Positions 3,793 through 29,746 of a DNA stretch of 34,938 nt are shown in pieces (position 1 is the first letter of the stretch; each line of letters starts with the position of its first letter). The position numbers were made by a program, and so were the translations under genes. Origin of the DNA: an uncultured Roseburia sp. (lineage in GTDB: Bacteria; Bacillota; Clostridia; Lachnospirales; Lachnospiraceae); NCBI GenBank assembly GCA_900756925.1, contig CAAELX010000029.1, positions 1-34,938 on the forward strand. The letters run 5' to 3'. A model generated the notes under the pieces. It searched no databases. It was not told where the DNA came from and saw only the letters and a list, made by a program, of their open reading frames with translations.

Positions 3793-3811
3793 CGCATTCT
3801 CCTTCAATATG

Positions 3812-5164: not shown

Positions 5165-5178
5165 TTGTTCTCTCCTCG

Positions 5179-7989
5179 TTAATATTGTGATAATGCTGTA
5201 TTCAACATCTCTGTCTGCCCTTCATCCATCGGTCCGGAAAACATCTCCGCCACCTGTCGAAACGACAGTCCATAGACCGCATCCGGTATCATATCCACCT
5301 CGGTCATCGTCGACAAAAATGCCCGTATCTGCGGATGGTTCAGCAAATCTTCCAGCTTTGACTCCACGCTGTATATTTTCTTTAACTTCTCAGTTGCCTC
5401 ATATACGACTTCATAGTTTCCTGCAGTGATATAACAAATACCGTTCACCACTGTTGCGAATAGTGGATTTGTCTTATCTTCAAACAGAATCTCCGGAGCA
5501 TGCGGCAATCGCACCTCGCCTTCTCCGCCAAACGGAATCGTAATTTTGATTCTAATCCTGTTATCCTCCATAATTTCCCAGCTGCATGCATACTGTCCGA
5601 CGGCCGAATCATACACTGCCTCTGCCCTTCTCAAATCATAATGGACATTCGGACAAATTGCAATCCTTCTTCCTCCCGGAGATTCTTCCAAAAGATGGAT
5701 TCCTCCCACATGGCGGAACATCCATTCCAGAATCGCCCCGTAAGAATAATGGTTGAGACTGTTCATTCCGGTACTGGATATCTTACCGTCTTCATCCAGT
5801 GAATTCCATCGTTCCCAGACTGTGGTGGCTCCCAGTTTCACTTCGTGCAGCCACCCCGGATACTCCTCGTTCAAAAGCAGGCGGTAGGCGGTATCCGTCA
5901 TTCCGTTATCGGTCAACACATTGCACAAAAGAGAGGTTCCCACAAATCCGGTATTCAATTTGTTTCTGCTCTCGCGGAAAAGTTTCTTTAACATCTCTCT
6001 GGTCAGCTCTTCGTCCTCTGACAAATGATATTTCAGAGCCAGCAGAAGACCCGTCTGTGTCTTTTCCGCGCATCTTCCGGTCGGGGTAAAATATTCTTCT
6101 TTTACCACACGCCATTGTTTTTCGGCGATTTCCCGATATTGTTTTTCCTCTTCCTTTCGCCCGAGAACCGCCGCTGCCTTCGCTGTAAGCTCCGCGCTTG
6201 CCGCATAATAAATATCCGCAATATAGCCTTCATCGGTCGCTCCGTATACATTTCCCGCCGCGGCTCCCACCCGGTCAAGCGCCAGCCAGTCTCCGTAATG
6301 GAAGGAATGTCTCCATCCGTGGTGCTCTCCGTCCACCTTACGGATATAGTCCACCCAAGCCTTCATACTGTCAAACTGCTGTTCCAATATGGCAGCATCC
6401 CCGCTGAACAGATAGACATTCCACGGAACGATACAGGCCGCATCGCCCCATGCACAGGAACATTTCGACGGACCGAAGGTCGGCACCACCTCCGGAACCA
6501 TCCCTCCGGCAATCAGCTGTTCCTTATACAAATCGTACAGATATTTTCTGTAAAATGCATAGGTATCCGCCAGATAACATGCCGTACCCGAAAACACCTG
6601 TGTGTCGCCTGTCCATCCCATGCGCTCATCTCTCTGCGGACAGTCTGTCGGCACATCTAAGAAATTATCCTTCATGCCCCATTCCACATTGGAAATCAAC
6701 TGATTTACCAGTTCATTTCCTGTCTGTATACTACCGGTACCTTCGTAATCACTGTAGAGTGCCATTCCCGTAAAATCTTCACAGGAGACATTGGTTACCC
6801 CGCTGATTTTTACATACCGGTATCCGTAAAATGTAAAATGCGGAACAATGTCTTTTTCTTCCCCGTCAGAGATATACACATATTCCGACAAAGCGGTTCT
6901 TAAGTTTTCGTTATAAAAACATCCGTCCTGCAGGATTTCGCCTGTCTGGATTCTGATTTCTTTTCCTTTCGGCTCATGGACATGAAGTTTGAAAATCCCG
7001 GTAATCTCCTGCCCTAAGTCAAACACCCATTCATCCTTCGGGGTGTGAATCAGTTCCTTCGGTGTAAACTGTTCATGCACAGTCACCGGAAGGGACAGCC
7101 GCTCCGTCAGTCGCCCCTGCGGCGCCTCCGCAAGCTGCGCGCTGACAGGTTCGACAGGTTCCAAGGTATCATCCCGTTTCTCCCCGTCATATATATTGGA
7201 AAAAAACAGATTGCTCCTTGTCACTTCCCATGTGTCATCCGTGCCGATTATCTCTTGTGTGCCATCCTCATATTCCAGATGCACCTCTACCAGCAGTTTC
7301 CACTCGTCGCCGTAAAATCCTTTCTGTTCTGTCTGATTGAGCCCGAACCTCCCTTTGTACCACCCATTCCCCAAAAGAACGGACAACACACCTTCGCGCT
7401 GCATCTGCGCGGTCACATCATACGTCTGATACTGTAACCACTGATTGTAGTTATTGCAGTACGGGGTCAGATATTCTTCCCCAATTTTCGCGGATTTTAA
7501 AATATCTGTTTCGGTTTTCTCTCCATCCGTAAAATATGCCTCATAAAGCCCCAGTCCGCAGAGATAGAGACGGGCTTTTTTTACCTTTCCACGGGGAATG
7601 ATTCGCTTTGAGAAAATGGGATGGCGTTCCATCCTGCTGTCGCAGGTAATCCATTTTCCCACCCACGGCTCGTCCCTCTTTGCCGTCTCAAAGAACTGTA
7701 CGTCGGACTCCAGCACTTCGTCTGCGTCCGTAGTAACGATTACCTTCCAGTAATATCTGGTACAAGGCTCCAGATTCATCTCCGCTTTTACAGCCAGACT
7801 GTCGAGCTTTGCCTCCCCGGTGTCCCAAAGAACATCCGCGAAGGTTTCATCCTTTGCCACAAGGATTCTGGCACATCTCTGGTTCTTTCCCCTGCATTCT
7901 CTGACCTTCCACGAAAAAACCACCGGATTCAGTAAAAATCCCACCGGATTCGTGATATGATTTGTTTTTGCTGCGTAAATCTGATTCAT
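5179..7989 (-). CDS. GH78 alpha-L-rhamnosidase, copy 1
   Basis: A 936-residue cytoplasmic glycoside hydrolase predicted to release terminal L-rhamnose from rhamnosides by an inverting mechanism. No signal peptide is present. Beta-sandwich domains occupy roughly residues 1-420, and the alpha/alpha barrel follows. The GH78 signature DCPQRDERMGWTGD spans 449-462, with Glu455 the likely general acid. Glu726 in ATTVWERW is the likely base. After the C-terminal beta domain (to about 868) comes an unusual helical tail (872-936) with DLLNHP, also seen in the neighbouring GH3 enzymes. The start was placed at 7989 because the paralog at 13209-16004 begins at the same conserved YAAKTNHITNP segment. An AAGGAAGGAG lies rather far upstream, and an in-frame TTG at 8004 or ATG at 8022 cannot be excluded. 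An AraC-type operator lies at 8072-8105. Confidence 0.93.
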   Translation of the reverse strand: MNQIYAAKTNHITNPVGFLLNPVVFSWKVRECRGKNQRCARILVAKDETFADVLWDTGEAKLDSLAVKAEMNLEPCTRYYWKVIVTTDADEVLESDVQFFETAKRDEPWVGKWITCDSRMERHPIFSKRIIPRGKVKKARLYLCGLGLYEAYFTDGEKTETDILKSAKIGEEYLTPYCNNYNQWLQYQTYDVTAQMQREGVLSVLLGNGWYKGRFGLNQTEQKGFYGDEWKLLVEVHLEYEDGTQEIIGTDDTWEVTRSNLFFSNIYDGEKRDDTLEPVEPVSAQLAEAPQGRLTERLSLPVTVHEQFTPKELIHTPKDEWVFDLGQEITGIFKLHVHEPKGKEIRIQTGEILQDGCFYNENLRTALSEYVYISDGEEKDIVPHFTFYGYRYVKISGVTNVSCEDFTGMALYSDYEGTGSIQTGNELVNQLISNVEWGMKDNFLDVPTDCPQRDERMGWTGDTQVFSGTACYLADTYAFYRKYLYDLYKEQLIAGGMVPEVVPTFGPSKCSCAWGDAACIVPWNVYLFSGDAAILEQQFDSMKAWVDYIRKVDGEHHGWRHSFHYGDWLALDRVGAAAGNVYGATDEGYIADIYYAASAELTAKAAAVLGRKEEEKQYREIAEKQWRVVKEEYFTPTGRCAEKTQTGLLLALKYHLSEDEELTREMLKKLFRESRNKLNTGFVGTSLLCNVLTDNGMTDTAYRLLLNEEYPGWLHEVKLGATTVWERWNSLDEDGKISSTGMNSLNHYSYGAILEWMFRHVGGIHLLEESPGGRRIAICPNVHYDLRRAEAVYDSAVGQYACSWEIMEDNRIRIKITIPFGGEGEVRLPHAPEILFEDKTNPLFATVVNGICYITAGNYEVVYEATEKLKKIYSVESKLEDLLNHPQIRAFLSTMTEVDMIPDAVYGLSFRQVAEMFSGPMDEGQTEMLNTALSQY

Positions 7990-8040
7990 ATTGCCGTTTT
8001 CCAAACTCCTTCCTTTTTTCATTGTGTACACTGTAATTCG

Positions 8041-8105
8041 AGTATAATGGATTTGCCTCATAAAATCATTTACGGAATTTCATCATTTTACCTACCAAAC
8101 TTAAG
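8041..8105 (-). promoter_or_regulatory. Island operator and promoter, third copy (upstream of GH78 copy 1)
   Basis: The plus-strand block TTTACCTACCAAACTTAA (8087-8104) matches the blocks at 11936 and 19522. The half-site ACCAAACTTAAG occupies 8094-8105, and a weaker second half-site lies exactly 22 bp away at 8072-8083. On the minus strand a TATACT -10-like hexamer lies at 8046-8041. The proximal half-site is 82 bp from the chosen gene start. A short overlapping reading frame lies between this site and the GH3 stop. Confidence 0.7.
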
Positions 8106-8120
8106 ATTTCAGCTCTTTGT

Positions 8121-8213
8121 TTACCTGTAAATCAATTCTTTCAACACAATCTCTTCTGCCATATTACGAATACCATTTACCGCTACCTCATCCTCAATTA
8201 TCCTATTGTGCAA
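8121..8213 (-). other. Possible 30-codon reading frame overlapping the GH3 stop
   Basis: In the +1 frame relative to the end of the GH3 gene there is a short frame of protein-like composition (RIIEDEVAVNGIRNMAEEI, then VLKELIYR and stop). It would begin at a TTG at 8213. No ribosome binding site or ATG is evident. It may be a leftover of a deleted gene or chance. I do not recognise it. Confidence 0.2.
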
Positions 8214-10458
8214 GTAAACAATTCAGCTGCCCGATCAGCTGTTCCACCTGCTCTCCCGGCATCTGCCCCAGCAGAGATTTCAGCGGCATTTCCCGGATAA
8301 CTTGCTCTCCCAGCTTCTTGTATTCGTCACTCATCCCTTCTGCTGATGCGGCCGCTGCTGCCAAAGGCGCCAGCAGTTCCGTAATAACGGGAGCGGTTTT
8401 CGTATGATCCAATAATTCTCCGAACGTTGTTGTGAAATCTACGCGAAGGGGCAATTTTTTCTTTGTTTCAAACACAACATCAGCATGTAAGCGGATGTCA
8501 TCAGAAGCATGGCCGATCAGGATCCGATATGTTCCGGATGGCGCATACCAGTCCCCAAGACGTTCTTCATAATAGGATAGATTCCTCGCCGAAATTTCCA
8601 TCGACACCGTTTTCTCCTCTCCCGGCAGGAGATGAACTTTGGCAAATCCTTTCAATTCCTTGACCGGTCTCTCCGATATGCCGCACAGGTCAGCCACGTA
8701 CAACTGTACGACTTCTTTTCCTTCTGTCTTTCCTGAATTTTTCACCTTGAGAGAGACTGTCAGTATATCCTCATCCGTCATTTGAGCCGATGACAAAGTC
8801 AGGTCCCCATAAGTAAATTCCGTGTAAGACAGCCCATGTCCGAATGCATACCGCACCGGAACCTTCTTTGTATCATAATAACGGTATCCGACAAAGATAT
8901 CCTCGCCATATAACACCCGCTTTCCATTTCCCGGAAAATGAAGGAAGCTCGGATTATCTTCCAGCCGGTACGGGAATGTCTCTGCCAGCCTGCCGGACGG
9001 ATTTGCTTCCCCGAATAACAGCCGGTCGCAGGCTTCGCCAACGCCCTGACCTCCTAGATACATTTCAAGGATCGCGCTTACCCGGTCTGCCCATGGCAGT
9101 TCTACCGGACTTCCATTGTGGAGTACCACTACAACATTAGGCTGTACTTTCAACACTTCTTCGATCAGCCGGTCCTGGCATTTTGGCAGCTTCATGGATG
9201 TTCTGTCATACCCTTCCGACTCAAATATCTCAGGCAGCCCGGCAAAGATTACCGCGACGTCTGCTTCTGCAGCAGTCCGAAGCGCTTTTTCCAGCTCTTG
9301 TTCCGTCATCGAGTCATTTTCGTTAGAAAATCCTTTTGCATAAGTCACGCTACGCCCTTTTTCTCCGGCAGCATCCAATGCCGAAACAACCCTGAACGGA
9401 TTGATATGGCTGGAGCCGCCGCCCTGATACCGCGGCTTTTCGGCAAATTCCCCTATATAGGCAACCTTTCTGTCTGTATTCAGCGGAAGTATACCGTTAT
9501 TTTCCAGCAGGACCGCACATTCCGTCTCAATATCAGCTGCTTTTTTATGATCTGTTTCCTTATCAGATATATCTTCCGGACGATGCTGCTCTTCACCGGC
9601 AAACACAACATTCAATACCCGCTCCACCGCTTCATCCAGCACAGCTTCGTCCAGTCTTCCCTCCTGTACTGCTTTCACAATCTGTCTGTCATTGTATCCT
9701 CCGGAATAAGGCATCTCCAGATCCAGTCCGGCCTGCAGTCCTTTCACACGGTTATTTACAGCGCCCCAGTCACTGACGACGCAGCCTTTGTATCCCCATT
9801 CTTTTCTCAGGATATCTGTCAGAAGATATCTGTTTTCCGAAGCATATTCTCCATTTATTTTGTTGTAGCTACACATGACGGTTCTTGGAGCTGATTCTTT
9901 CACCGCTTCCTCAAACGCAGGCAGGTAGATTTCCCTGAGCGCACGTTCTGACACTTCGGAAGATATCGTCATACGGAGTGTTTCCTGGTTATTCAGTGCG
10001 AAGTGCTTAATGCTTGTCCCCACGCCCTGACTCTGTACTCCGCGGATATATGCCGATGCCATCCTACCTGCCAGATATGGATCCTCCGACAGATACTCAA
10101 AGTTCCGCCCACATAACGGGCTCCTTTTAATATTCACCGCCGGGCCAAGCAGTATGCTTACATTCTCGGCCTGACACTCCGCTCCCAGCGTCTCTCCCAT
10201 CCGTTCCATCAGGTCAACATCAAAGCTGGAGGCTGTTGCACAGGCTGCCGGGAAACAAACGGCCTTCACACTTTCATTCAATCCCAGATGATCCGTTTCC
10301 CCTTCCTGCTTTCTCAGTCCGTGAGGGCCGTCCACCATCATAACTGACGGAATGTTCAGTCGTTTGATTTCTTTCGTATGCCAGTTATCAGCGCCCGAGC
10401 AGAGACTTGCCTTCTCTTCCAGCGTCATTTTTGAAATCAGTTCCTTTATTCTGTCCAT
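8203..10458 (-). CDS. GH3 beta-glycosidase (beta-glucosidase-like), copy 1
   Basis: A 751-residue retaining beta-glycosidase without signal peptide, predicted to act in the cytoplasm. The N-terminal TIM barrel shows DGPHGLRK (43-50), GRNFEYLSEDP (117-127), KHFALNNQE (151-159) and the nucleophile motif SDW with Asp230. The second domain carries ESEGYDR, where a Glu is the expected acid/base. A fibronectin-like domain follows. The last ~75 residues form a helical tail (ELLDHT, then MPLKSLL and EQLIGQLN) related to the tail of the GH78 enzymes. The gene starts 23 bp after the upstream transporter stop, with AGGAGG, and forms a unit with it. A beta-glucosidase acting after rhamnose removal is the most likely role. 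Beta-xylosidase or other activity is possible. Confidence 0.92.
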   Translation of the reverse strand: MDRIKELISKMTLEEKASLCSGADNWHTKEIKRLNIPSVMMVDGPHGLRKQEGETDHLGLNESVKAVCFPAACATASSFDVDLMERMGETLGAECQAENVSILLGPAVNIKRSPLCGRNFEYLSEDPYLAGRMASAYIRGVQSQGVGTSIKHFALNNQETLRMTISSEVSERALREIYLPAFEEAVKESAPRTVMCSYNKINGEYASENRYLLTDILRKEWGYKGCVVSDWGAVNNRVKGLQAGLDLEMPYSGGYNDRQIVKAVQEGRLDEAVLDEAVERVLNVVFAGEEQHRPEDISDKETDHKKAADIETECAVLLENNGILPLNTDRKVAYIGEFAEKPRYQGGGSSHINPFRVVSALDAAGEKGRSVTYAKGFSNENDSMTEQELEKALRTAAEADVAVIFAGLPEIFESEGYDRTSMKLPKCQDRLIEEVLKVQPNVVVVLHNGSPVELPWADRVSAILEMYLGGQGVGEACDRLLFGEANPSGRLAETFPYRLEDNPSFLHFPGNGKRVLYGEDIFVGYRYYDTKKVPVRYAFGHGLSYTEFTYGDLTLSSAQMTDEDILTVSLKVKNSGKTEGKEVVQLYVADLCGISERPVKELKGFAKVHLLPGEEKTVSMEISARNLSYYEERLGDWYAPSGTYRILIGHASDDIRLHADVVFETKKKLPLRVDFTTTFGELLDHTKTAPVITELLAPLAAAAASAEGMSDEYKKLGEQVIREMPLKSLLGQMPGEQVEQLIGQLNCLLAQ

Positions 10459-10481
10459 CGCAAAAGTCCTCCTTTCTTTTC

Positions 10482-11858
10482 TTAATACTGATTGATCATC
10501 TGTGCCTCTGCTTCTTCACGGCTGATCTCACCATTATTGCATTTTGCCATCAGCTGGACATCATGGTCATTAAGCTTGTAAAGACGAAGTATAAGCAGAG
10601 TGCAAATACCCCCGATAATGCTGCCAAGACAGCTGAATGTCCATAATTTATCGGCAAATCCTGCCGCCTGAACAACGCCTTCTCCTTCCCGGAAGCCGAT
10701 TAAAGTTAACGCAAACACACTGACTGCTGTTGCGACCGCTCCATTTAATTTTGTAAAAAATGTCTGCGCTGCAAACGTTACACCACGCATTTTTAATCCT
10801 GTCTTGTACTGTCCATACTCGTAGCAGTCCGGCGTAAACTGATACTGCAGTATAACTGCTATTCCCAGCGGAATTCCTCCTAAGGCATTTAAAATCACAT
10901 ACACCATCATATTCTCATACCCGGCTATGAATCTTACAATTCCCAGAAGTAAAGCGAAAATATATGAAATATAGAAGACTTTAAATTTATCATATTTTTT
11001 GCATAATTCTACTGCCATAACCGCACCGATTAAGGTCGGAATAATTACCGCCATCGAAACATATGAGGCAGCTTCTTCACCGCCAAGGCAGTACCGGGCA
11101 ACGTATAAGCCCCAATTTGCACCAACATTAAGCAGGCTGCTGATGAGCGGAGCCGCAAAGAAAAGCAATAAATATTTGTTCTTCCGCAGACATTCTACCA
11201 TATCTCGCAATGTATAACTTTCTTCTGCCCCGTCATTCTGGACTCTTTCTTTTTCAATTACTCTCTCCCTTGCGAACAGACAAATCGGAATCATCATAAC
11301 ACATGACAAAAGAGATAACACAATTACTGTTGTTGACCAGCCGCCTAACCGCTGCCGTACCAACGGCAGGGCAATTCCTGTAACAATACCTGCAAAAATA
11401 GCAAACAATCTTCCTATGCTGTTTAGTGAAACACGTTCCTTCTGGTCTATTGTCATCGTGGTAACAATACCAAAAATCGGTACATCGCAAAGGGTATAGG
11501 CTGTATCCCATAACATATAAGCAAGTGTTGCCCATATGATTTTAGCCGTCATGGAAATCCCGGTAGGTATTATAAAAAGAAGAATAGTTGCCACCGGAAT
11601 CGCTATGACAGATATTCGAAGCCACGGCAGGAATTTCCCTTTCTTAAAATTCACCTTATCCATGATCATACCGAAGATCGGATCGTTGATGGCATCCCAC
11701 ACTTTCGTGATAAGCGCCACGATCGCAACCAATGCTGCCGTTATGCCGATATCTGTAAAATATGTAGTCATATATCCTACCAGTCCATAGAATACATTCT
11801 GTCCCATAAAATACAAACCATAACTGATTTTTTCTCTTTTTGTAACTGAATTTTCCAT
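10482..11858 (-). CDS. GPH-family sugar:cation symporter, copy 2
   Basis: A 458-residue polytopic membrane protein of the MelB/GPH symporter family with about 12 hydrophobic segments. The family motif KVWDAINDPIFG places Asp55 and Asp59 exactly as in MelB, and KKGKFLPW follows in the loop. The C-terminal half shows YEYGQYKTG, a common GPH element. It is only distantly similar to the transporter at 3812-5164, so the two are not recent duplicates and may carry different sugars. The start at 11858 has AAAGGAC upstream; a longer frame with 21 more residues lacks a matching site and would run into the promoter. An operator lies at 11921-11954. It heads a two-gene unit with the GH3 gene. Confidence 0.9.
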   Translation of the reverse strand: MENSVTKREKISYGLYFMGQNVFYGLVGYMTTYFTDIGITAALVAIVALITKVWDAINDPIFGMIMDKVNFKKGKFLPWLRISVIAIPVATILLFIIPTGISMTAKIIWATLAYMLWDTAYTLCDVPIFGIVTTMTIDQKERVSLNSIGRLFAIFAGIVTGIALPLVRQRLGGWSTTVIVLSLLSCVMMIPICLFARERVIEKERVQNDGAEESYTLRDMVECLRKNKYLLLFFAAPLISSLLNVGANWGLYVARYCLGGEEAASYVSMAVIIPTLIGAVMAVELCKKYDKFKVFYISYIFALLLGIVRFIAGYENMMVYVILNALGGIPLGIAVILQYQFTPDCYEYGQYKTGLKMRGVTFAAQTFFTKLNGAVATAVSVFALTLIGFREGEGVVQAAGFADKLWTFSCLGSIIGGICTLLILRLYKLNDHDVQLMAKCNNGEISREEAEAQMINQY

Positions 11859-11889
11859 TTCGTTATCCGTCCTTTCATTGTTTGATTCA

Positions 11890-11954
11890 ATTATAAATAA
11901 TTCCAAAGGGCAAATCACCAACGATATATAAGCAGTTTACCGACGAAACTTAAT
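11890..11954 (-). promoter_or_regulatory. Island operator and promoter, second copy (upstream of GPH transporter 2)
   Basis: The half-sites ACGAAACTTAAT (11943-11954) and ACGATATATAAG (11921-11932) are direct repeats with a 22-bp period, matching the arrangement at 19507-19540. A minus-strand TATAAT lies at 11895-11890. No good -35 hexamer is seen (GTGATT at 17-bp spacing), which fits an activator-dependent promoter. The proximal half-site is 62 bp from the start codon. Confidence 0.78.
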
Positions 11955-11976
11955 ATAATAATCATCTTTCTAAAAA

Positions 11977-12774
11977 TTAATATAAATATTCTTCCATCTT
12001 AGGCGTCCACCATTCCAGATATCCTGCCTGCGTCGGATGAACCGGATCTGCCATATAAACTTCATATTCTTTTTCAGAAACGTCATTCATCTCCTCGTCA
12101 TTCCAAAGGTCGATCACGCCTATTCCATATTTATCCTGAAGCTCAAACAATACATCTACCATCTGCTGATACTGTTTACTGTCATATTTTGTTCCGGTAT
12201 AAAAGATCACGGGACAATTCCATGTCTGCTTTGCATATACAATGATATATTCCATTGCTCCTGTTATCGTCTGTGTATCAAAATCCTCCAGATTTTCTGA
12301 ACTGCTGATTTCTCCCATCGGCATTTCCTTCGACGCGTCATTCGTGGAAAGCTGACAGACAAATGCATCGAATTTCTCATCTGTACCGATATTATTTTTC
12401 ATCCTTTGGATATAAGACGTCTTTCCGTTATCCACTAAAGTAGTACCGCTTACAGCTTCTTTTACATACTCACAGCCATTTCTGTAAGAGATATAATCTG
12501 CGAAAGAAACATCCATTGAGTACAGACCTAAGGTTACAGATGATCCAAGGTAGCAGATACGCTTCCCTTCAAGAGGGCTGTTTTCTAACGGTTCTATATT
12601 TTCCAGGCTGTATTTTTCTGCGTTTCCCGGCATTTTTTTCAGTTTGTTCTTCCAGACAAAATCAAACGGTCCTCCACCGCCTGCTGCTCCTACTAAATAT
12701 GTCAGGCCGATTCCCACAGCCAGAATCAGAATTAAAACGATACTTAAGATAATCTTCAATATTTTCTTTTTCAT
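11977..12774 (-). CDS. Membrane-anchored SGNH/GDSL-type hydrolase
   Basis: A 265-residue protein with a lysine-rich N-terminus (MKKK) and a hydrophobic segment at about residues 5-28. This predicts a signal-anchor with the enzyme outside the cell; there is no lipobox cysteine. The SGNH blocks are visible: YLGSSVT with nucleophile Ser79, LSTND with the block III Asn, and DPVHPTQAGY with the catalytic Asp/His pair near the C-terminus. Such enzymes remove acetyl or other acyl groups from carbohydrates, so an accessory deacylase role is reasonable here. The start at 12774 has AAGGAG nine bases upstream; a start 11 codons earlier lacks one. It is the last gene of the unit that begins at 19446. The acyl substrate is unknown. 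Confidence 0.87.
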   Translation of the reverse strand: MKKKILKIILSIVLILILAVGIGLTYLVGAAGGGGPFDFVWKNKLKKMPGNAEKYSLENIEPLENSPLEGKRICYLGSSVTLGLYSMDVSFADYISYRNGCEYVKEAVSGTTLVDNGKTSYIQRMKNNIGTDEKFDAFVCQLSTNDASKEMPMGEISSSENLEDFDTQTITGAMEYIIVYAKQTWNCPVIFYTGTKYDSKQYQQMVDVLFELQDKYGIGVIDLWNDEEMNDVSEKEYEVYMADPVHPTQAGYLEWWTPKMEEYLY

Positions 12775-12879
12775 AATCCCTAACTCCTTATTATTTTCAA
12801 CTTTCATATTAAGAGAACTAACCGTCTGTATTTACCGGTCAGTTCTCGCAAATACTGTCATTTTGTTTTCTTTGATTCT

Positions 12880-13194
12880 TTATTCAAACTGATACATTCC
12901 GCTTCCTACCTTGTATAATCTGCCATCCGGCATCTTTACAACGGCAGTCGTGTTGCAGGGGATTTTTACTTTCAGCTTAAATTTCCCTTCGTCCATACTC
13001 CACCTGACTGCGATTTCCCCGTACTCACTTATATAAGTACGTTTTACACTGGTAAACGCATTGTCCGGCTCCGGTGCGATTACAATCTCCTTAAATCCGG
13101 GAGCAGCCATATCAATGCCGCTTATCTTCCGGAACATCCAGTCGTCCACGCATGGTCTATATTGACTGTTTACTTTAAGCCTTATAAGCTCCAT
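12880..13194 (-). pseudogene. GH78 gene collapsed to N- and C-terminal ends (104 codons, frame intact)
   Basis: The first ~14 residues (MELIRLKVNSQYRP) resemble the GH78 N-terminus preserved at 3792. From residue 17 on (VDDWMFRKISGID, then PGFKEIVIAPEPD and KRTYISEYGEI) the sequence is the typical C-terminal end of the GH78 barrel and its beta domain. About 800 or more internal codons, including every catalytic residue, are missing, yet the frame is open to a normal stop. It follows the intact GH78 (13209-16004) by 14 bp with only a weak ribosome binding site. The simplest reading is a relic of a tandem rhamnosidase gene. A small stand-alone beta-domain protein is a less likely alternative. 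Confidence 0.75.
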
Positions 13195-13208
13195 AGCAAC
13201 CCTACTGA

Positions 13209-16004
13209 TTAGAATTTTGCCAGTGCCGCATCCAGCATCTGCGCCTCATCTTTTTTTATCTCTCCTGCGAATGTTTTCGCGACATCTCTAAGCGAAAGCC
13301 CATATGCAATATCGGGGATCATATCCACTTCCATCATTTGAGAAAGAAACGCGCGGATATCCGGATGGTTCAGCAGTTCTTCCATTGTCGAGTCTATGCT
13401 GTATTTCTTCTTTAAAGGCTGTGACGCCTCATAAGCGACTTCATATTCTCCGGCTCTCACACGGCAGATTCCATTTTCCACCTCTTCAAATAATGGATTT
13501 TCTTTATCTTCATATACAGATTCCGACGCATATGGAAGAACCACTTCTGCACTTCCGCCGAACGGAACCGTAACAGTGACCGTGATTTTATTATCCTCTG
13601 ATATCTCCCAGCCGCACTGATAGCATCCGCTTGCCGAATCATAAACAGCTTTTACATATTTCAGTCCATTATTCACTTTCGGGCTGATCCGCATCACCCT
13701 GCCTCCCGGGTTCTGTTCCGTCACATCAATCCCGGCCGCATGACGGAAGATCCACTCCAATACAGCGCCGTAAGAATAATGATTTAGACTGTTCATCCCC
13801 GTGCTGGAGACATGTCCGCTCTCATCCAGTGAATTCCAACGCTCCCACACCGTTGTTGCTCCCAGCTTCACTTCATGGAGCCAGCCCGGGTATTCCTTAT
13901 TCAGAAGCAGCCGGTATGCCGCGTCTGTCATTCCATGATCAGTCAGGACATTGCACAGAAGCGGGGTTCCTACAAACCCGGTATTTAATTTATTTTTATT
14001 ATCCCTGAGAAGCTTTTGCAGCATCTGCTTTGTCAGTTCTTCATTTTCAGACAGATGATATTTCAGTGCAAGAATAAGCCCTGTCTGCGTCTTCACCGCA
14101 CATCTGCCTGTAGCAGTAAAATATTCTTCTTTCACGACCTGCCACTGACGGTCTGCGATTTTCTGATACTCCTGTCTCGTTTCTTCCAGTCCAAGCACCT
14201 CTGCTGCTTTTGCAACAATCTGTGCACTTGCCGCGTAGTAGATGTCTGCAATGTATGCTTCATCAGTCGCTCCATACACGCTGTTCGCAGCGGCACCTGT
14301 ACGGTCAAGAGCAAGCCAGTCACCATAATGGAAAACCTGTCTCCATCCATGATGGTCTCCATCAATTCTCCGGATATAATCGACCCACGCTTTCATGCTC
14401 TCAATTTGGTTTTCGAGTATTGTTTTGTCCCCGCTGAACAAATATACGTTCCAGGGGATGATACATGCGGCGTCTCCCCATGCGCAGGAACATTTTGTCG
14501 GTCCGAATGTGGGGACAATCTCCGGAACCATTCCGCCCGCCAGAAGCTGTTCCTGATACAGGTCGTATAAATATTTTCGGTAAAACGCATAGGTATCAGC
14601 CAGATAGCTTGCAGTCGCGGAAAATACCTGTGTATCTCCTGTCCAGCCCATCCTCTCATCTCTTTGGGGACAGTCTGTAGGCACATCCAGAAAGTTCCCT
14701 TTCATTCCCCATTCGATATTGGAGATTAATTTGTTCACAAGATCATTCCCTGTCTCGATTGCCCCGATGCTCTCATAATCACTGTAAAGAACAAGCGCCG
14801 TAAAATCCTCACACGAAAGGTCCCTAACCCCGGTCACTTTCACATATCGATAACCATAGTATGTAAAATGAGGCGTAATCACCTTTTCTGTACCATCAGA
14901 AACATAAATGTACTCCGAAAGTGCAGTTCTTAAATTCTCGTTGTAGAAACATCCGTCCTGAAGCACCTCGCCCGTCTGAATCCTGATAGTTGTCCCCGCC
15001 GGCTCATGCACCCGCAGCCGGAAGATCCCCGTGATCTCCTGCCCCAGATCAAATACCTCTTCTCCGGCAGGAGTATGGATCAGCTCTGCCGGCTTCATCT
15101 CCTCCTGTACCTTAACTGGAAGAGATAACCGTTCCATAAGCCGGCCTTTCGGAACCTTTGCGATCCGCGCAGGAGACTCCTCTACCGGCGGCAGCGTATC
15201 ATCTCTTCTCTCACCGTCATAGATATTGGAAAACCACAAATTGCTTCTTGTAACTGACCAGGTTTCATCAGAACTGATCACATCTTTCGTTCCGTCTTTG
15301 TACTCTATGTGAATCTCCGCAATCAGCTTCCACTCGTCACCGTAATATGCTTCCCGCTCCGGATCATTGAAACCGAACCTGCCTTTATACCAACCGTTTC
15401 CGAGAAGAACAGACAGCACACCTCCTCGTTCTGCCTGTTCTGTGATGTCATACGTCTGATACTGGATCCACCGGTCATAATTATTGCAGTACGGAGTCAG
15501 ATACTCTTCACCGATTTTCTTAGGATTTTCTTTATTTTCCCCAAGAAAATATGCCTCATACAATCCCAGGCCGCAAATGTACAGTCTTGCGCTTTTCACT
15601 TCTTTTGCCGGACGAATCCTCTTTGAGAAAATCGGATGCCGTTCCTGACTGCTGTCACAGGTAATCCACCTGCCCGTCCACGGTTCATCCATTTTGGCGG
15701 TCTCAAAGAACTGCGTGTCTGATTCGATCACTTCCTCTGCATCTGTTGTCACAATAACTTTCCAGTAATATCTTGTATACGGCTGCGGTTCAAATTCCAC
15801 TCTTGCAGAGAGACTGTCCAGCTCTGCCTCCCCCGTGTCGTGACAGATATCTGTAAAGGTTTTGTTCTTGCTGATCACAATCCTTGCATGTTTCTGTTCC
15901 TGTCCTCTGCCGCCTTTCACTTTCCATGAAAATACCAACGGTTTCAGATAAAACCCTAAAGGGTTTGTGATATGATTTGTTTTTGCCGCATAAATCTTGC
16001 CCAT
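13209..16004 (-). CDS. GH78 alpha-L-rhamnosidase, copy 2
   Basis: A 931-residue cytoplasmic enzyme, collinear with and very similar to the 5179-7989 protein. The signature DCPQRDERMGWTGD spans 444-457, with Glu450 the probable general acid. The Glu of ATTVWERW (about 721) is the probable base. The N-terminal part is shorter by five residues, in the loop around residues 154-165. The helical tail (about 867-931) with ELLNHP and GLSLRDV is conserved too. GGAAG precedes the ATG. It lies 62 bp downstream of the GH3 gene, so the order GH3 then GH78 is the same as at 10458-5179 and indicates segmental duplication. The copies may differ in aglycone or linkage preference, which cannot be judged from sequence. 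Confidence 0.93.
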   Translation of the reverse strand: MGKIYAAKTNHITNPLGFYLKPLVFSWKVKGGRGQEQKHARIVISKNKTFTDICHDTGEAELDSLSARVEFEPQPYTRYYWKVIVTTDAEEVIESDTQFFETAKMDEPWTGRWITCDSSQERHPIFSKRIRPAKEVKSARLYICGLGLYEAYFLGENKENPKKIGEEYLTPYCNNYDRWIQYQTYDITEQAERGGVLSVLLGNGWYKGRFGFNDPEREAYYGDEWKLIAEIHIEYKDGTKDVISSDETWSVTRSNLWFSNIYDGERRDDTLPPVEESPARIAKVPKGRLMERLSLPVKVQEEMKPAELIHTPAGEEVFDLGQEITGIFRLRVHEPAGTTIRIQTGEVLQDGCFYNENLRTALSEYIYVSDGTEKVITPHFTYYGYRYVKVTGVRDLSCEDFTALVLYSDYESIGAIETGNDLVNKLISNIEWGMKGNFLDVPTDCPQRDERMGWTGDTQVFSATASYLADTYAFYRKYLYDLYQEQLLAGGMVPEIVPTFGPTKCSCAWGDAACIIPWNVYLFSGDKTILENQIESMKAWVDYIRRIDGDHHGWRQVFHYGDWLALDRTGAAANSVYGATDEAYIADIYYAASAQIVAKAAEVLGLEETRQEYQKIADRQWQVVKEEYFTATGRCAVKTQTGLILALKYHLSENEELTKQMLQKLLRDNKNKLNTGFVGTPLLCNVLTDHGMTDAAYRLLLNKEYPGWLHEVKLGATTVWERWNSLDESGHVSSTGMNSLNHYSYGAVLEWIFRHAAGIDVTEQNPGGRVMRISPKVNNGLKYVKAVYDSASGCYQCGWEISEDNKITVTVTVPFGGSAEVVLPYASESVYEDKENPLFEEVENGICRVRAGEYEVAYEASQPLKKKYSIDSTMEELLNHPDIRAFLSQMMEVDMIPDIAYGLSLRDVAKTFAGEIKKDEAQMLDAALAKF

Positions 16005-16066
16005 AATTCTTCCTCATTTTCATGCTGATACTTTTTCATCCAATAATAAGCCAACCGTTCCTCCCA

Positions 16067-18319
16067 CTACTGACACAGAGCATTTAACTCCACGATCATC
16101 TGCTCGATCGCTTCGCCCGGAATAACGCTTAAAAATGATTTCAGCGGCATCTGCGCAATAATTTCCGGAGTCACAAGCTGTACCTCCCCATCTTCTTTCT
16201 TAGGTTCTTCTCCCTGTGATATCCCCTCAAGATACTCCATCATTTTCCCTGCTGTCTTCGGGTGGTTCATCAATTCCCCCATTGTAGTGGTCATATCCAC
16301 AGTGAACGGCAGCAGCACATCAGTAGTAAATGTAAGTTCTGCAGCCTCTCTGATCTCATCGCTGGCATGCCCGATCTGGATCTCATATGTACCTGACGGA
16401 GTGTACCAGTCGTGAATCTTTGTCTCGTAGTAAGCAAAATCTCTCGCGCAAAGTTCCATTGTAACCGTCTTCTTCTCACCCGGATTCAGAAATACTTTCG
16501 CAAACCCTTTTAGTTCTTTCACTGCTCTTGGCACCGTGCTGTCCTTGTCACTGACATAGAGTTGAACCACTTCACTTCCTGCCCTCTTCCCTGTATTCTC
16601 CACATCAATGCTCACCTTCAGAATATCTCCATCTTTCATTTCCGCAGAAGAGAGTTTCATATTGCTGTAGCTGAATTCCGTATATGACAGTCCATGGCCG
16701 AATGCCCAGCGCACCGGTACTTTCTTCGCATCATAGTAACGGTATCCGACAAAGATATCTTCTCCATAGAGAACAGTCCTGCCGTCTCCAGGGAAATTCA
16801 GGTAACTCGGGTTGTCTTCCAGACGATATGGGAACGTCTCCGCCAGACGTCCTCCTGGATTTGCCTCCCCAAATAACAGCCGGTCGCTGGCCTCCCCAAT
16901 GCCTTCTCCTCCCAGATACATCTCCAGAATGGCATTTACAGACTCCGCCCATGGAGTTTCTACGGGACTTCCGTTATGAAGAACCACTACCACATTTTTC
17001 TGTATCTCAGCCACAGCCTCTATAAGGCGATTCTGACACTTTGGCAGTTCCATGGATATTCTGTCATATCCTTCCGACTCAAAGCTGTCCGGCAGTCCGG
17101 CAAAGATTACAACTACATCTGCGCCCGCTGCCGCTTCACACGCCTGTTTCAGATCCTCTTCTGTCATCTCGTCACGCTCTGACGAGAAGCCTTTCACGTA
17201 CTCCACTGCCCTGCCTTTTCTCACCGCAGTTTCCAGAGCCGACACTACGCTGTCCGTATTGATGTGACTCGATCCCCCGCCCTGGTATCGCGGTTTCTTT
17301 GCAAATTCCCCGATATAGACTACTTTCTGTTCTTTTTTCAGCGGCAGCACTCCCCTGTTTTCCAGAAGTACGGCGCACTCTGTTTCGATATCTGCCGCTG
17401 CTTTGTGATCCTTTTCCCTGTCAAATACAGTCTCCGCTTTCCTGTTATCTGTGTAGGAGAAGACTACTTTCAGTATGCGTTCCACCGTTCTGTCAAGAAT
17501 TTCTTCCTCCAGTTCTCCATTCTCCACTGCCTGAATAATCTTTCTTGTATTATATCCTCCTGATCCCGGCATCTCCAAGTCAAGACCGGCTTTCAGTCCT
17601 TTCACCCGGTCATTTACAGCTCCCCAGTCACTGACCACATATCCTTCAAATCCCCACTCATCCCGCAGGATATCTGTCAGAAGCTTCTTATTCTCTGAAG
17701 AAAATACTCCGTTGATCTTATTGTAGCTGCACATCACAGTCTTTGGCTGCGCTTTCTTCACCGCCTCCTCAAAAGCCGGCAGATAAATTTCCCGGAAAGC
17801 CCGTTCCGATACTTCCGACGATATCTGCATACGGTCTGTTTCCTGATTATTCGCGGCGAAGTGTTTCATACTGGTTCCGATGCCTTTCGACTGTACGCCC
17901 CGGATATATGCTGACGCCATCTTTCCTGTCAGATATGGATCTTCGGACATATATTCAAAATTCCTTCCGCAGAGAGGACTGCGTTTGATATTAACTGCAG
18001 GGCCGAGGAGCATGCCCACGTTCTCAGCCTGACACTCGTCCCCAAGGATCTGTCCCATACATTCCATCAGTTCCACGTCAAAGCTGGATGCCGTGGCGCA
18101 GGCTGCCGGAAAGCAGACTGCATTCACACTTTTATTCAGGCCGAGATGATCTGCCGCGCCTTCCTGTTTGCGCAAGCCGTGCGGGCCGTCTGTCATCATA
18201 ACGGAAGGAATCCCTAACCTTTCGATTCCCATCGTGTTCCAGAAATCCGCTCCCGAACATAGTCCTGCTTTTTCCTCCAGTGTCATCTGTCTGATCAATT
18301 CTTTCAGGTTTCTGCTCAT
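16067..18319 (-). CDS. GH3 beta-glycosidase (beta-glucosidase-like), copy 2
   Basis: A 750-residue retaining glycosidase without export signal. TIM barrel motifs are DGPHGLRK (44-51), GRNFEYMSEDP (118-128), KHFAANNQE (152-160) and VSDWGAVN with nucleophile Asp231. The second domain carries ESEGYDR with the likely acid/base Glu. A fibronectin-like domain and a ~70-residue helical tail follow (ELMNHP, then MPLKSFL and EQMIVELN). It is clearly paralogous to the 8203-10458 gene. AAGGAGG stands upstream of the start. It is the second gene of the unit that begins with the hydrolase at 19446, with 35 bp between them. Removal of a beta-linked glucose after or before rhamnose release is the expected task. 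Confidence 0.92.
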   Translation of the reverse strand: MSRNLKELIRQMTLEEKAGLCSGADFWNTMGIERLGIPSVMMTDGPHGLRKQEGAADHLGLNKSVNAVCFPAACATASSFDVELMECMGQILGDECQAENVGMLLGPAVNIKRSPLCGRNFEYMSEDPYLTGKMASAYIRGVQSKGIGTSMKHFAANNQETDRMQISSEVSERAFREIYLPAFEEAVKKAQPKTVMCSYNKINGVFSSENKKLLTDILRDEWGFEGYVVSDWGAVNDRVKGLKAGLDLEMPGSGGYNTRKIIQAVENGELEEEILDRTVERILKVVFSYTDNRKAETVFDREKDHKAAADIETECAVLLENRGVLPLKKEQKVVYIGEFAKKPRYQGGGSSHINTDSVVSALETAVRKGRAVEYVKGFSSERDEMTEEDLKQACEAAAGADVVVIFAGLPDSFESEGYDRISMELPKCQNRLIEAVAEIQKNVVVVLHNGSPVETPWAESVNAILEMYLGGEGIGEASDRLLFGEANPGGRLAETFPYRLEDNPSYLNFPGDGRTVLYGEDIFVGYRYYDAKKVPVRWAFGHGLSYTEFSYSNMKLSSAEMKDGDILKVSIDVENTGKRAGSEVVQLYVSDKDSTVPRAVKELKGFAKVFLNPGEKKTVTMELCARDFAYYETKIHDWYTPSGTYEIQIGHASDEIREAAELTFTTDVLLPFTVDMTTTMGELMNHPKTAGKMMEYLEGISQGEEPKKEDGEVQLVTPEIIAQMPLKSFLSVIPGEAIEQMIVELNALCQ

Positions 18320-18354
18320 TATGAAATCCTCCTTAAATAAATTCTTATCTGTTC

Positions 18355-19446
18355 CTATCTGTGGGCTTCCCAGAAGATGACTGCTTCCTGAAGCCAGTTT
18401 TTCACTTTTGTTTCATTTCCTATTCCAAATCCATGTCCCAGTCCGTCAACGATTCTGACCGACACATTTTCTTTGCCCAGTACCTTCTCTAATTCCAGCA
18501 GTTTATCTTCCACATTTGCAAAACCGAACTCATCATCCCGCCCTACGATAGAAAATACCGCCAGTCCCTTGTCCTCCTGCAAAGCTTTGATATTCCAGTC
18601 CAGACCATACATAGGGAAGATCACCTTCGGTCTTGGCAGATGATTCTTGTGGCAGCAGTCCTCATAATTGGCAAATGAATACGCCGTGGTCATAAGTCCT
18701 CCTGCTGAAAAACCAAAGATGGCATAATCATCCATGTTTACAGAAAACTGTTTTTGATGCTCCGTCAGATATCGAATCACTTGTGTCAGTTCCCTCGCGG
18801 CAGCCTGTCCCTGCTTCACCTGTTCTGTCTCACCCAGCTGCCTGCCGACCGGATAACTTATGACGAAAACAGAATATCCCATTTTATGCAGCTTCATCGC
18901 CGCAGGATACCCCTCGCAATCAGTTACATTACTGATAAATCCGCCTCCCGGAACTACAATGGCAAGTGGTTTTCCCTGTTGTCCCTGATAAAACATTCCC
19001 GTCAGATGTGACCTGTACGGATGACCCTTCACTGCTTCCGCAGGATACAGATCCGACACCAGCCTTGCCTGACCTTTCTCAACAAGTCCGGTTAGATAAT
19101 TGAAAGATTCCAAGGCTGCATCCAATTGTTCCTCACGGCCCGGCGCCTTTAAAAAATCCTTATACTTTACAGGCGCAATAGCTTTCAGCACGTTGTCCTC
19201 CACATTGAAAAACATATGTTTAAAACCGCCGAATACCGGATGCTGCATGAAAAATCCAACTTTGTCCTCCCCCGTTCCCGGACGGAAATGTCCGTTTTCA
19301 TCGTAATAGCTGCTTTCCTTTATTTTTGGAAATCCGCAGATGCCAAGAAGTGCCGGCAAAAACATGGCACTTTTTTTATAGACATATAATGTCGCACCGA
19401 TTACAAATAATAAAACAATCACCACTACTGCAAAAAATATCTTCAT
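18355..19446 (-). CDS. Membrane-anchored alpha/beta hydrolase (esterase-like), copy 3
   Basis: A 363-residue alpha/beta hydrolase with a hydrophobic N-terminal segment (residues 4-22) followed by a Lys pair. Catalytic features are PGGGF (166-170), GFSAGG with Ser247, GRDDE with the acidic partner, and His338 in LGHGFG. EDCCHK is conserved. It is nearly collinear with the 2098-3192 protein throughout. AAGGAGG lies 11 bases before the ATG. This is the first gene downstream of the divergent AraC regulator, and it heads a unit with GH3, GH78, the GH78 relic and the SGNH enzyme. Likely a carbohydrate esterase, with the substrate undetermined. Confidence 0.88.
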   Translation of the reverse strand: MKIFFAVVVIVLLFVIGATLYVYKKSAMFLPALLGICGFPKIKESSYYDENGHFRPGTGEDKVGFFMQHPVFGGFKHMFFNVEDNVLKAIAPVKYKDFLKAPGREEQLDAALESFNYLTGLVEKGQARLVSDLYPAEAVKGHPYRSHLTGMFYQGQQGKPLAIVVPGGGFISNVTDCEGYPAAMKLHKMGYSVFVISYPVGRQLGETEQVKQGQAAARELTQVIRYLTEHQKQFSVNMDDYAIFGFSAGGLMTTAYSFANYEDCCHKNHLPRPKVIFPMYGLDWNIKALQEDKGLAVFSIVGRDDEFGFANVEDKLLELEKVLGKENVSVRIVDGLGHGFGIGNETKVKNWLQEAVIFWEAHR

Positions 19447-19482
19447 CCTAACCTATGCCTCCTTTTCTTACTGACATCTTAC

Positions 19483-19540
19483 TTTATACAGACTAAAATT
19501 ACATCAACGAAACATAAGTGATTTACCGACCAAACTTAAT
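19483..19540 (-). promoter_or_regulatory. Island operator and promoter, first copy (between hydrolase 3 and the AraC gene)
   Basis: Two direct repeats, ACGAAACATAAG (19507-19518) and ACCAAACTTAAT (19529-19540), are 22 bp apart, two helical turns, as expected for an AraC-type dimer or tandem monomers. The proximal repeat overlaps the expected -35 position of a minus-strand promoter with a TATAAA -10 box at 19488-19483. The distance from the proximal repeat to the start codon is 60 bp. The distal edge is 120 bp from the AraC start, so autoregulation is possible. Confidence 0.8.
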
Positions 19541-19660
19541 AAATATCCGAGATTACTCTGTACACCTTTGCCCCCAATATGGTATATTTTAGACAGGTTA
19601 AATAAACTGCTGATGACTATAATCACAGTTCATTCATATCTCGAAAAGGAGAGATTATAT

Positions 19661-20698
19661 ATGATGACATTATCTGCATTGAATCAATTTCTGAAGCAGC
19701 ACACTACCGAAGAAACCCAGCGTCTGAATGGTGTAAAAAAAGATTATTCACAATTTCCTGTTGCCAGAGGTAAGTTTGATACACCCTGTTACCGTTTTGA
19801 TACGAACCTTGAAGATCTGCGTTCTTTATTTCTTTCAAAGAAAGTGCTTCCGAGTTATTACAACTTCGCTGTTGTAAAACAGGATCGTTTTGAAAACGTA
19901 CCTCTGCATATCCATGAGTGGCTGGAGTTGAGTTATATTTATTCTGGTTCCTGCACAATGACGATAAATAAGACTACATTCAGGCTAAAAGCCGGGCAGA
20001 TGGTTCTGATCAGCCAGAATGCACCTCATTCTGTCAAAAGATGTTCAGAAAATGATATTATCATCAATTTTCTGCTGACGCGCGAATATCTGAACGGTAC
20101 TTTTTTTGAACGCCTGTCTCAGGATAATTACCTTACACACTTTTTCATTGAGGCTCTGAACACCACGATGCAGGAAAGCATGTATATTGTCTTTTCCCCG
20201 GAACAAAAACAAAACCGGCTGGCAGATCTTGCCAACCAGTTTCTCTGTGAATTTTATTCTCCGTCCGTAACATCCGGACCTTTTTTAGACAGTCTTTTTA
20301 CGCTGATTACCTGCGAGATGATCAATCTGTTCCAGCACGGTATGGTTCTAGATCACGCCTCTGTGGATCAGATTTATACCATACTCCGATATATCGAAAC
20401 AAACTTTGCGGACTGTACCCTTTCTTCTACAGCTGAGTTTTTTAATATGCACCCAAACTATCTCTCTGCCTACATACGCCAGCATACCGGAACCACTTAC
20501 AAAGAGCTGGTCCAGACACACCGGCTCTCTCAGGCGGCAAAATTGTTAAGGAGCACCGCACTTTCCACAAATGATATCAGCCTTGCCGTCGGATATCAGA
20601 ATACCAGCTTTTTCTTTCAGCTGTTCCGCAAGAAATACGGATGTACGCCTATGGAATATCGAAACATGCTTCATGCTTCTGATACGCCAAATATGTGA
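19661..20698 (+). CDS. AraC-family transcriptional regulator of the glycoside island
   Basis: A 345-residue regulator. The N-terminal half is a cupin-like sensing domain (PLHIHEWLEL with the metal/ligand-side histidines, then GQMVLISQNAPH). The C-terminal ~100 residues carry two helix-turn-helix motifs: SSTAEFFNMHPNYLSAYIR, and ISLAVGYQNTSFFFQLFRK followed by the family's P-x-E-Y-R end (TPMEYR). The start at 19661 was chosen because AAAAGGAGAG lies 9 bases upstream; the frame extends 31 codons further without such a site. It is divergent from the hydrolase/GH3/GH78 unit and shares the intergenic region that holds a 22-bp-period direct repeat. It is probably an activator that senses a rhamnose-containing sugar or a breakdown product. 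That ligand is inferred from context. Confidence 0.9.
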   Translation: MMTLSALNQFLKQHTTEETQRLNGVKKDYSQFPVARGKFDTPCYRFDTNLEDLRSLFLSKKVLPSYYNFAVVKQDRFENVPLHIHEWLELSYIYSGSCTMTINKTTFRLKAGQMVLISQNAPHSVKRCSENDIIINFLLTREYLNGTFFERLSQDNYLTHFFIEALNTTMQESMYIVFSPEQKQNRLADLANQFLCEFYSPSVTSGPFLDSLFTLITCEMINLFQHGMVLDHASVDQIYTILRYIETNFADCTLSSTAEFFNMHPNYLSAYIRQHTGTTYKELVQTHRLSQAAKLLRSTALSTNDISLAVGYQNTSFFFQLFRKKYGCTPMEYRNMLHASDTPNM

Positions 20699-20706
20699 TA
20701 TGTACA

Positions 20707-21258
20707 TTATTTGCCATATAGAAACTTTTCCGGTAAAGTTACTTTAAAATCTTTCGCCAAATCTCTGAAATTCTGAGGTGAGATTGTCTGTCTTTTATCC
20801 GGTCTCATAGACAGCATCTTTACAAGGATTTCCGCGGATTTCTCTACGGTGTGCATTAATCCGAATGTAAGATCAAAGTCTTCCCCTGAGCAGAACATGC
20901 CGTGATGCGCCCAGATTGCCACATCATATTCTTTCATCAGGGCACTTGTCGCCACTGCGATCTCACGGCCGCCCGGCACCATCCATCCTACTACACCGAT
21001 TCCGGAAGGAAATACAACCGGGCACTCGGTCGCCATCTCCCAGAGTTCTCTAGTAAATACTTTATCCTCCAACGGCAGTACAAATGTCAGTGCGATCACA
21101 TTCGTGGTATGTGCATGATAAACATTGGTAACGCCTTTTTTCACTTCATGGTTCATCAGGTGACTCGGCAGCTCACTGGTCGGTCTGCCTCCGTTTACCA
21201 GACCCCAAAGGATGCGGTAATTCTCTCCTTTTTCATCCAATTCGATGATATTTTGCAT
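20707..21258 (-). pseudogene. rhaD: Rhamnulose-1-phosphate aldolase, 5'-truncated
   Basis: The 183 codons match the C-terminal two thirds of class II rhamnulose-1-phosphate aldolase, which cleaves L-rhamnulose-1-phosphate to dihydroxyacetone phosphate and L-lactaldehyde. WGLVNGGRPTSELPSH, the zinc ligands in YHAHTTNVIALTF, and WAHHGMFCSG with the third His are visible. The family is about 270 residues long, so roughly 85-90 N-terminal residues are missing. An in-frame TAG lies two codons upstream of the ATG at 21258, there is no convincing ribosome binding site, and sequence further right is unrelated. The gene was probably cut by the rearrangement that left the mobile-element debris beside it. 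It is convergent with the AraC gene (8-bp gap). Its presence still ties the island to rhamnose metabolism. Confidence 0.8.
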
Positions 21259-29727: not shown

Positions 29728-29746
29728 TAAAAAAGGAGATAACTAT

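Follow-up and report, generated by a model that had tools for sequence, protein, structure and literature searches.

Three direct-repeat sites at an araC locus as predicted operators of a local rhamnoside-use regulon in an uncultured Roseburia sp.

What controls an array of glycoside-use genes in which the same short motif stands before three groups of genes? The question is raised by a stretch of 34,938 bp from an uncultured Roseburia sp. (contig CAAELX010000029.1, hereafter the window), in which three copies of a direct repeat, numbered here as operators 1 to 3, lie among genes for alpha-L-rhamnosidases, other glycosidases, sugar symporters and esterases, with an AraC-family gene (araC, 19661-20698) adjoining operator 3. 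We consider it highly probable that this AraC-family protein uses all three sites as its operators, which would make the array a local multi-promoter regulon with class II-type activation in response to rhamnose or a rhamnoside. The proposed link between regulator and operator is drawn from the co-occurrence of both across species.

The three sites proved to be genuine, lie at the positions given and far exceed what chance would produce. In a search of both strands of the window, the plus-strand 18-mer TTTACCGACCAAACTTAA was found at 19522 without a mismatch and at 11936 and 8087 with one mismatch each, and at no further place with up to four mismatches, which confirms the three copies given in the preliminary description of this DNA. 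On the strand of the genes, each operator consists of a distal 18-bp element, TTAAGTTTSGTNGGTAAA, which is followed at a 22-bp register by a related, more degenerate proximal element. The half-site ACSAAACWTAAK is present without a mismatch at 19507, 19529, 11943 and 8094, with two mismatches at 11921 (operator 2) and with three at 8072 (operator 1). When shifts of 12-30 bp were tried, 22 gave the best self-match in all three sites (12, 12 and 10 of 18 positions). The pairing of half-sites 22 bp apart, as had been proposed, was thus found in every copy, while a weak proximal half, which had been flagged in one of them, is a property of two. The reported distances of 60, 62 and 82 bp between the operators and the start codons agree with starts at 19446, 11858 and 7989. 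The 22-bp shift also ranked first in the sum over 12 sites from the window and its relatives (126 compared to 97 for the runner-up), a set that is not fully independent, as the site of locus L003 is nearly the same as operator 3. Moreover, TTAAGTTTGGT is present twice in L006, 22 bp apart.

Two matrices were used for scoring. The first, of 38 bp, was based on 11 sites including those of the window, and its maximum in 50 shuffles of the window was 13.9 bits, compared to at least 39.2 bits for the operators. Because this matrix contains the window sites, a second one was made from only six sites outside the family, which came from Clostridium folliculivorans (L009), Neobacillus cucumis (L011) and a genome of the Neobacillus family, G970 (L065). 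It ranked the three operators in the first three places in 35 kb, all above 20 bits, with the next place at 6.7 bits, and the maximum in 100 first-order simulations was 15.4 bits. A chance repeat was rejected, as both maxima are far under the scores of the window sites with the same matrices. A structured RNA was rejected as well; no Rfam model matched at its gathering threshold within the window.

Further analysis was based on nine relatives of the AraC protein that were fetched from public genomes. Their identity to the window protein was 100% in L003, 91% in L004 and in the partial L006, 89% in L005 (Faecalicatena faecalis), 49% in L007, 39% in L009, 37% in L008, 30% in L010 and 29% in L011. 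An operator adjoins the araC relative in L003-L007, L009 and L011, the last two having two sites each, and L008 has borderline sites only (9.8 and 9.1 bits). The preliminary description had proposed a matrix scan of relatives and had named a motif found at many unrelated promoters as the observation that would speak against its reading. The nine genomes were searched as a whole, with one mismatch allowed, and six of them yielded eight exact-core sites, all at the araC locus. Four one-mismatch matches lie away from araC (L060-L063; 12.9, 2.8, -12.4 and -4.7 bits), L061 and L063 inside open reading frames (ORFs) and L060 and L062 between them. Among 397 genomes of the same family the exact core matched six times, twice beside close araC relatives (G001 and G149) and four times inside ORFs. 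G001 is the same assembly as L003 and G791, and G149 the same as L005 and G793. A spread over unrelated promoters was looked for in the 397 genomes and the nine whole genomes and was not found. In a search of 398 genomes of the phylum, three had a match: G001, G208 (one of the four inside ORFs) and G507. The G507 match, L051, is a candidate site with a distal element only (20.0 bits) and no second half; it sits between a TetR-like gene and a predicted lipoprotein gene (both named by eye), upstream of the latter. Among 193 genomes of the Neobacillus family, the pattern matched only N. cucumis (two sites; a starting genome) and G970, where it lies between a glycoside hydrolase (GH) family 106 gene and an AraC gene whose product is 36% identical to that of the window, in a locus that also contains a phosphotransferase system (PTS) gene. 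The PTS gene of G970 has a second operator before it (23.9 bits), which differs from the pattern at one position. Since this locus was found by the pattern alone, it is an independent prediction.

A search with the AraC protein (E up to 1e-20) found matches in 171 of the 397 same-family genomes, and 30 AraC loci (L016-L045) were scanned for the site. Seven of them reached 10 bits or more; L016 and L017 repeat known sites, and the other five are untrained variants beside AraC homologues (L022 25.6, L018 19.9, L021 18.2, L026 17.3 and L025 11.4 bits). All seven are within the 11 best AraC matches (L016-L026), and none of the 19 loci L027-L045 reached 10 bits. In simulations, nine false matches of at least 10 bits were obtained in 3.49 Mb, which corresponds to about 0.3 expected in the 112 kb that was scanned. 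The proposal that these are AraC-type operators with the adjacent araC as regulator thus gained support from the co-occurrence of the site and this AraC subfamily across species.

The protein itself has the domains of a sugar-responsive AraC-family regulator. The C-terminal double helix-turn-helix (HTH) was recognised by PF12833 (73.6 bits, gathering threshold 33.6) and PF00165 (39.4, 26.6), and the N-terminal cupin effector domain by PF07883 (34.0, 27.2) and PF02311 (34.1, 21.1). Among 12 homologues, the cupin residues H83, H85 and H123 are invariant and E89 is conserved in at least 90%. Among the 25 of 29 matching NCBIfam models that are listed, none had its cut-off reached; the RhaS model gave 52.2 bits of the required 288, and the RhaR models 46.4 of 363, 40.8 of 384 and 39.2 of 525. 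Beside araC lies a 5'-truncated gene for rhamnulose-1-phosphate aldolase (rhaD). It scored 218.3 bits with TIGR02624, which is under the cut-off of 400.95, the match begins at about profile position 90, and no N-terminal part was recognised by eye upstream. A truncated rhaD beside araC is also found in L003, and a rhaD-like neighbour was absent among the ORFs listed for L004 and L005.

The promoters also share a geometry. The preliminary description had given each copy a -10-like hexamer just downstream and a poor -35, and this was borne out: counted from the first T of TTAAG in the distal element, TAAGAT, TATAAT and TATACT all start at offset 58, which was the best of 38 offsets for the three window sites (a mean of 5.0 of 6 matches to TATAAT, the next being 3.67). 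An assumed spacer of 17 bp puts the -35 hexamer at offset 35-40, where it runs into the end of the proximal element; three of its six bases agree with TTGACA in each window site. A sigma70 consensus scan of the window found 53 pairs (33.4 expected), and no pair used any of these putative -10 hexamers. The transcripts are predicted to start at about 19469, 11883 and 8034; of the earlier estimates, 8034 is unchanged and 11882 is nearly identical, and the common offset moves 19475 to about 19469. TAnnnT is present at offset 58 or 59 in all 12 sites of the set in which the pattern was noticed and in six of ten further sites (L018, L022, L025, L026, L065_13008 and L008_9453), among which L025 and L026 are near-identical in sequence and the L008 and L020 sites are low-scoring; in these ten, 58/59 was the best among 38 neighbouring offset pairs. 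Both traits of class II AraC-type sites were therefore observed, namely two direct half-sites about two helical turns apart, from the 22-bp shift, and a proximal half-site that extends into the -35 of a promoter whose -10 has a fixed position, from the TAnnnT counts and the -35 offset.

The genes behind the operator differ between relatives. In F. faecalis the same site directly precedes GH78, and in L006 the operator is followed by a symporter and then GH78. A GH106-type alpha-L-rhamnosidase is a target in L007, L009, L011 and L065, by Pfam matches of 37-75 bits over part of the profile, and in L009, L011 and L065 the other operator stands before a PTS gene that encodes IIB and IIC domains. 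The neighbour in L022 has no Pfam match, yet it is 43-50% identical to three GH106-type proteins over about 400 residues. Downstream of the site there is a PTS gene in L018, and GH78 domains in L025. In N. cucumis DSM 101566 the AraC frame (L011:9773-10800) appears to be interrupted in the HTH region, and both operators are present. As judged from these loci, the regulator-operator pair appears to be kept while its targets change, from GH106 and PTS in the distant relatives to GH78, GPH symporter, GH3 and esterases here. A broader proposal, which in our estimate stands at even odds, is a portable rhamnoside-sensing unit: an AraC/cupin protein with a rigid template (18-bp distal element, proximal element at +22, -10 at +58/59) that would have persisted in Lachnospiraceae, Clostridium and the Neobacillus family, with proteins 29-40% identical, while the genes behind it were exchanged wholesale, so that regulator and operator would mark rhamnoside-use loci better than the enzymes do. 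An AraC tree of 26 rows places the window clade beside L007, which has GH106 and MFS genes, with support (92/93) below the tool's marker level, so that any order of target exchange read from it would be tentative.

Several observations weigh against control of the array by this protein. Operators 1 and 2 have degenerate proximal halves, and only in operator 3 is the proximal half perfect to the half-site. Among the 12 sites, shift 22 was not the best in L007_9915, L009_7697 and L011_9721 and was tied in L003 and L011_13074. Over the same sites, offset 58 was not the best by matches to TATAAT (3.17 compared to 3.58 at 36 and 51), because four sites have the hexamer at 59; the TAnnnT criterion was picked after the first 12 sites had been inspected, and it fails in four of the ten further ones (L021, L065_9804, L008_9643 and L020). 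A sigma70-like pair with nine of 12 matches (8112-8085, minus strand) covers part of operator 1 and is set in a different register. No match at up to one mismatch was obtained in the genomes of L007, L008 and L010, the site of L007 itself having two mismatches in the core, and the partial span of the GH106 matches belongs here as well. The homologues of L019, L023 and L024, 37-44% identical, are without a site (1.1, 0.7 and -2.7 bits; L019 is close to a contig end), and L020 reached only 7.3 bits; in these four loci, and hence in part of the AraC subfamily, the site has diverged or moved. Moreover, a reversed control pattern was commoner than the motif in the 397 same-family genomes (11 to 6), the nine genomes (26 to 12) and the Neobacillus family (4 to 3), and it had seven matches in the phylum search. 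Because the control is no rarer, the bare 18-mer is not enriched and its matches away from araC are at background; the informative part of the matches is their places, not their number.

How else could the three sites be explained? The same protein might act at the same operators as a repressor, with or without looping, until the sugar arrives. A divergent promoter-like pair for araC (TGTACA-18-TATATT, 19559-19588) found by the sigma70 scan starts 20 bp from operator 3, which would allow dual control or autoregulation, and the pair that overlaps operator 1 fits repression. However, none of the sites extends as far as the conserved -10; they stop upstream of it, where the poor -35 lies, and tandem-repeat sites of AraC-family proteins upstream of promoter elements in C. 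bescii were interpreted as activator sites in the excerpted text of PMC8579813; we regard repression as unlikely. The sites could also bind a regulator encoded elsewhere, such as a global sugar regulator, with the AraC protein controlling something else. The tie between AraC and the sites is drawn from sequence comparison, and the window also encodes an OmpR-type response regulator. A global regulator would, however, have sites elsewhere, while the motif is found at loci of this AraC subfamily, with eight of eight exact-core sites in nine genomes and the G970 locus found by pattern. A global regulator's motif was rejected on the whole-genome scans of relatives, and a different regulator is, in our view, very improbable.

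The copies could, finally, be leftovers of an array duplication, two of them inactive, and the history of the array bears on this. The paralogous GH78, GH3 and esterase proteins are 69-72% identical, the proximal halves of operators 1 and 2 are degraded, and the closest genome, G001 (29% of sampled 31-mers shared with the window), has one operator only. This genome is missing the roughly 8 kb that separate the switch points and contain operators 1 and 2, and it carries a hybrid GH78 gene (L003:2169-4964) whose first half follows GH78_2 (89-100% in blocks of 150 columns) and whose second half follows GH78_1 (99-100%), the switch being near alignment column 1,500-1,650. The simplest reading of this hybrid would be recombination between GH78_1 and GH78_2; an artefact of metagenome-bin assembly is the alternative. 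Against inactive leftovers, the operators do not occupy equivalent places in the paralogous units: one precedes GH78_1 and none GH78_2, and one precedes a symporter that is only 28% identical to the other. The flanks outside the three operators are 0.27-0.45 identical, yet the distal 18 bp (0.89-0.94) and the spacing to the -10 are kept. Because the flanks diverged while the distal elements were conserved, the sites appear to have been kept by selection and not by recent copying, and recent segmental copying was rejected, as the identity of the flanks gives it no support. We consider inactive leftovers scarcely credible.

If the adjacent AraC protein activates from these operators, two protomers would sit on the DNA in head-to-tail order, two helical turns from each other; the strong distal element would set the position, and the weaker proximal element would reach the -35 region of a promoter with a -10 and a poor -35. 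Once its cupin domain holds L-rhamnose or a rhamnoside, the protein would recruit RNA polymerase in the manner of class II AraC-type promoters. Three transcripts, with boundaries that are predicted here, would then be switched on: esterase-GH3-GH78-GDSL, symporter-GH3 and GH78-symporter. L-rhamnose or a rhamnoside is the likely inducer because alpha-L-rhamnose is common to the targets; the link to rhamnose comes from the GH78 and GH106-type targets and from the rhaD remnant adjoining araC.

The features of the window are collected in Table 1. The match of the GH3 protein at 8203-10458, together with GH78 and the esterases, may hint at saponin-type or flavonoid glycoside substrates, which is speculation. 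Two pieces, a concanavalin-like domain at 3189-3811 and a stretch after GH78_2 at 12808-13208 that was recognised by eye as a GH78 C-terminal piece, appear to be GH78 remnants and apparent signs of array rearrangement. In L003 a GPH-type symporter (4989-6341), 43% identical to that at 3812-5164 of the window, lies between GH3 and GH78; similar genes are found after GH3 in L004 and before GH78 in L006, and there is none at that place in the window.

Table 1. Predicted operators, promoter elements and genes in the window (ORF, open reading frame)
Feature	Position	Strand	Remarks
Operator 3, distal element TTAAGTTTGGTCGGTAAA	19522..19539	-	52.0 bits with the first matrix; 22.1 bits with the second
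Operator 3, proximal element TTATGTTTCGTTGATG	19502..19517	-	22 bp after distal
Operator 2, distal element TTAAGTTTCGTCGGTAAA	11936..11953	-	43.9 bits with the first matrix; 21.4 bits with the second
Operator 2, proximal element TTATATATCGTTGGTG	11916..11931	-	2 mismatches to half-site
Operator 1, distal element TTAAGTTTGGTAGGTAAA	8087..8104	-	39.2 bits with the first matrix; 20.9 bits with the second
Operator 1, weak proximal element TGAAATTCCGTAAATG	8067..8082	-	3 mismatches to half-site
Putative -10 TAAGAT, operator 3	19476..19481	-	offset 58
Putative -10 TATAAT, operator 2	11890..11895	-	offset 58
Putative -10 TATACT, operator 1	8041..8046	-	offset 58
AraC-family regulator, cupin + HTH_18	19661..20698	+	Pfam on ORF 19568-20698; predicted cognate role
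Rhamnulose-1-phosphate aldolase (rhaD), 5'-truncated, adjoins araC	20707..21258	-	NCBIfam NF002963, 207.7 bits (cut-off 170)
Esterase-like alpha/beta hydrolase (BD-FAE), first gene under operator 3	18355..19446	-	
GH3 glycosidase	16067..18319	-	
GH78 alpha-L-rhamnosidase (GH78_2)	13209..16004	-	
GDSL-like esterase	11977..12807	-	
GPH/MFS_2 sugar symporter, first gene under operator 2	10482..11858	-	domains on ORF 10482-11921; start 11858 read from sequence
GH3 glycosidase	8203..10458	-	best NCBIfam model exo-alpha-(1->6)-L-arabinopyranosidase, 812 bits, below cut-off 1300
GH78 alpha-L-rhamnosidase (GH78_1), first gene under operator 1	5179..7989	-	ORF 5179-8061; start 7989 read from sequence
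GPH/MFS_2 sugar symporter	3812..5164	-	14 bp after GH78_1
OmpR-type response regulator	29675-30448		

These results give a regulator that matches no listed NCBIfam cut-off a predicted DNA site, a likely class of signal and three promoters. The pattern located, in another genome, a rhamnosidase locus with a different enzyme family and transporter type, and how gut-type Lachnospiraceae control the digestion of plant rhamnosides becomes accessible to experiment. Among the titles and abstracts listed in the literature searches, none was on this motif or regulator.

At araI1-I2 of E. coli, AraC occupies head-to-tail protomer sites beside the promoter as an activator, and the proximal site reaches the -35 region. 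XylS at Pm has two 15-bp direct repeats, according to the portion of PMC5481539 consulted. The window resembles both in having two head-to-tail protomer sites beside the promoter of an activator, here a predicted one. The half-site sequence is different, and the window regulator is only a distant relative of E. coli AraC (PRK10572, 54.5 bits compared to a cut-off of 208). E. coli RhaS and RhaR are alike in being of the AraC family with a rhamnose regulon; their sites, as described in excerpts from PMC3870299, are inverted repeats, unlike the direct repeats of the window, and the window protein remains far under the cut-off of the RhaS model. For Bacillales, Bacteroides and Enterococcus, the same excerpts (Rodionova et al. 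2013) predict rhamnose regulators of the AraC family whose sites are direct repeats with a period of 21 bp. Those regulators share with ours the AraC family, mostly local regulons, an operator of direct repeats about two helical turns apart and rhamnose-related targets, with rhamnosidases and transporters in some lineages. The period, however, is 21 bp there and 22 bp here, the two being compared by period and description, and the targets in the window are glycosidases, symporters and esterases, with only a remnant of rhaD. AraC-type rhamnose operators with direct repeats of about 21 bp have thus already been described, and the circuit proposed here is well supported but of the ordinary sugar-response kind; its most interesting feature is a control unit that is conserved across the exchange of enzymes and transporters.

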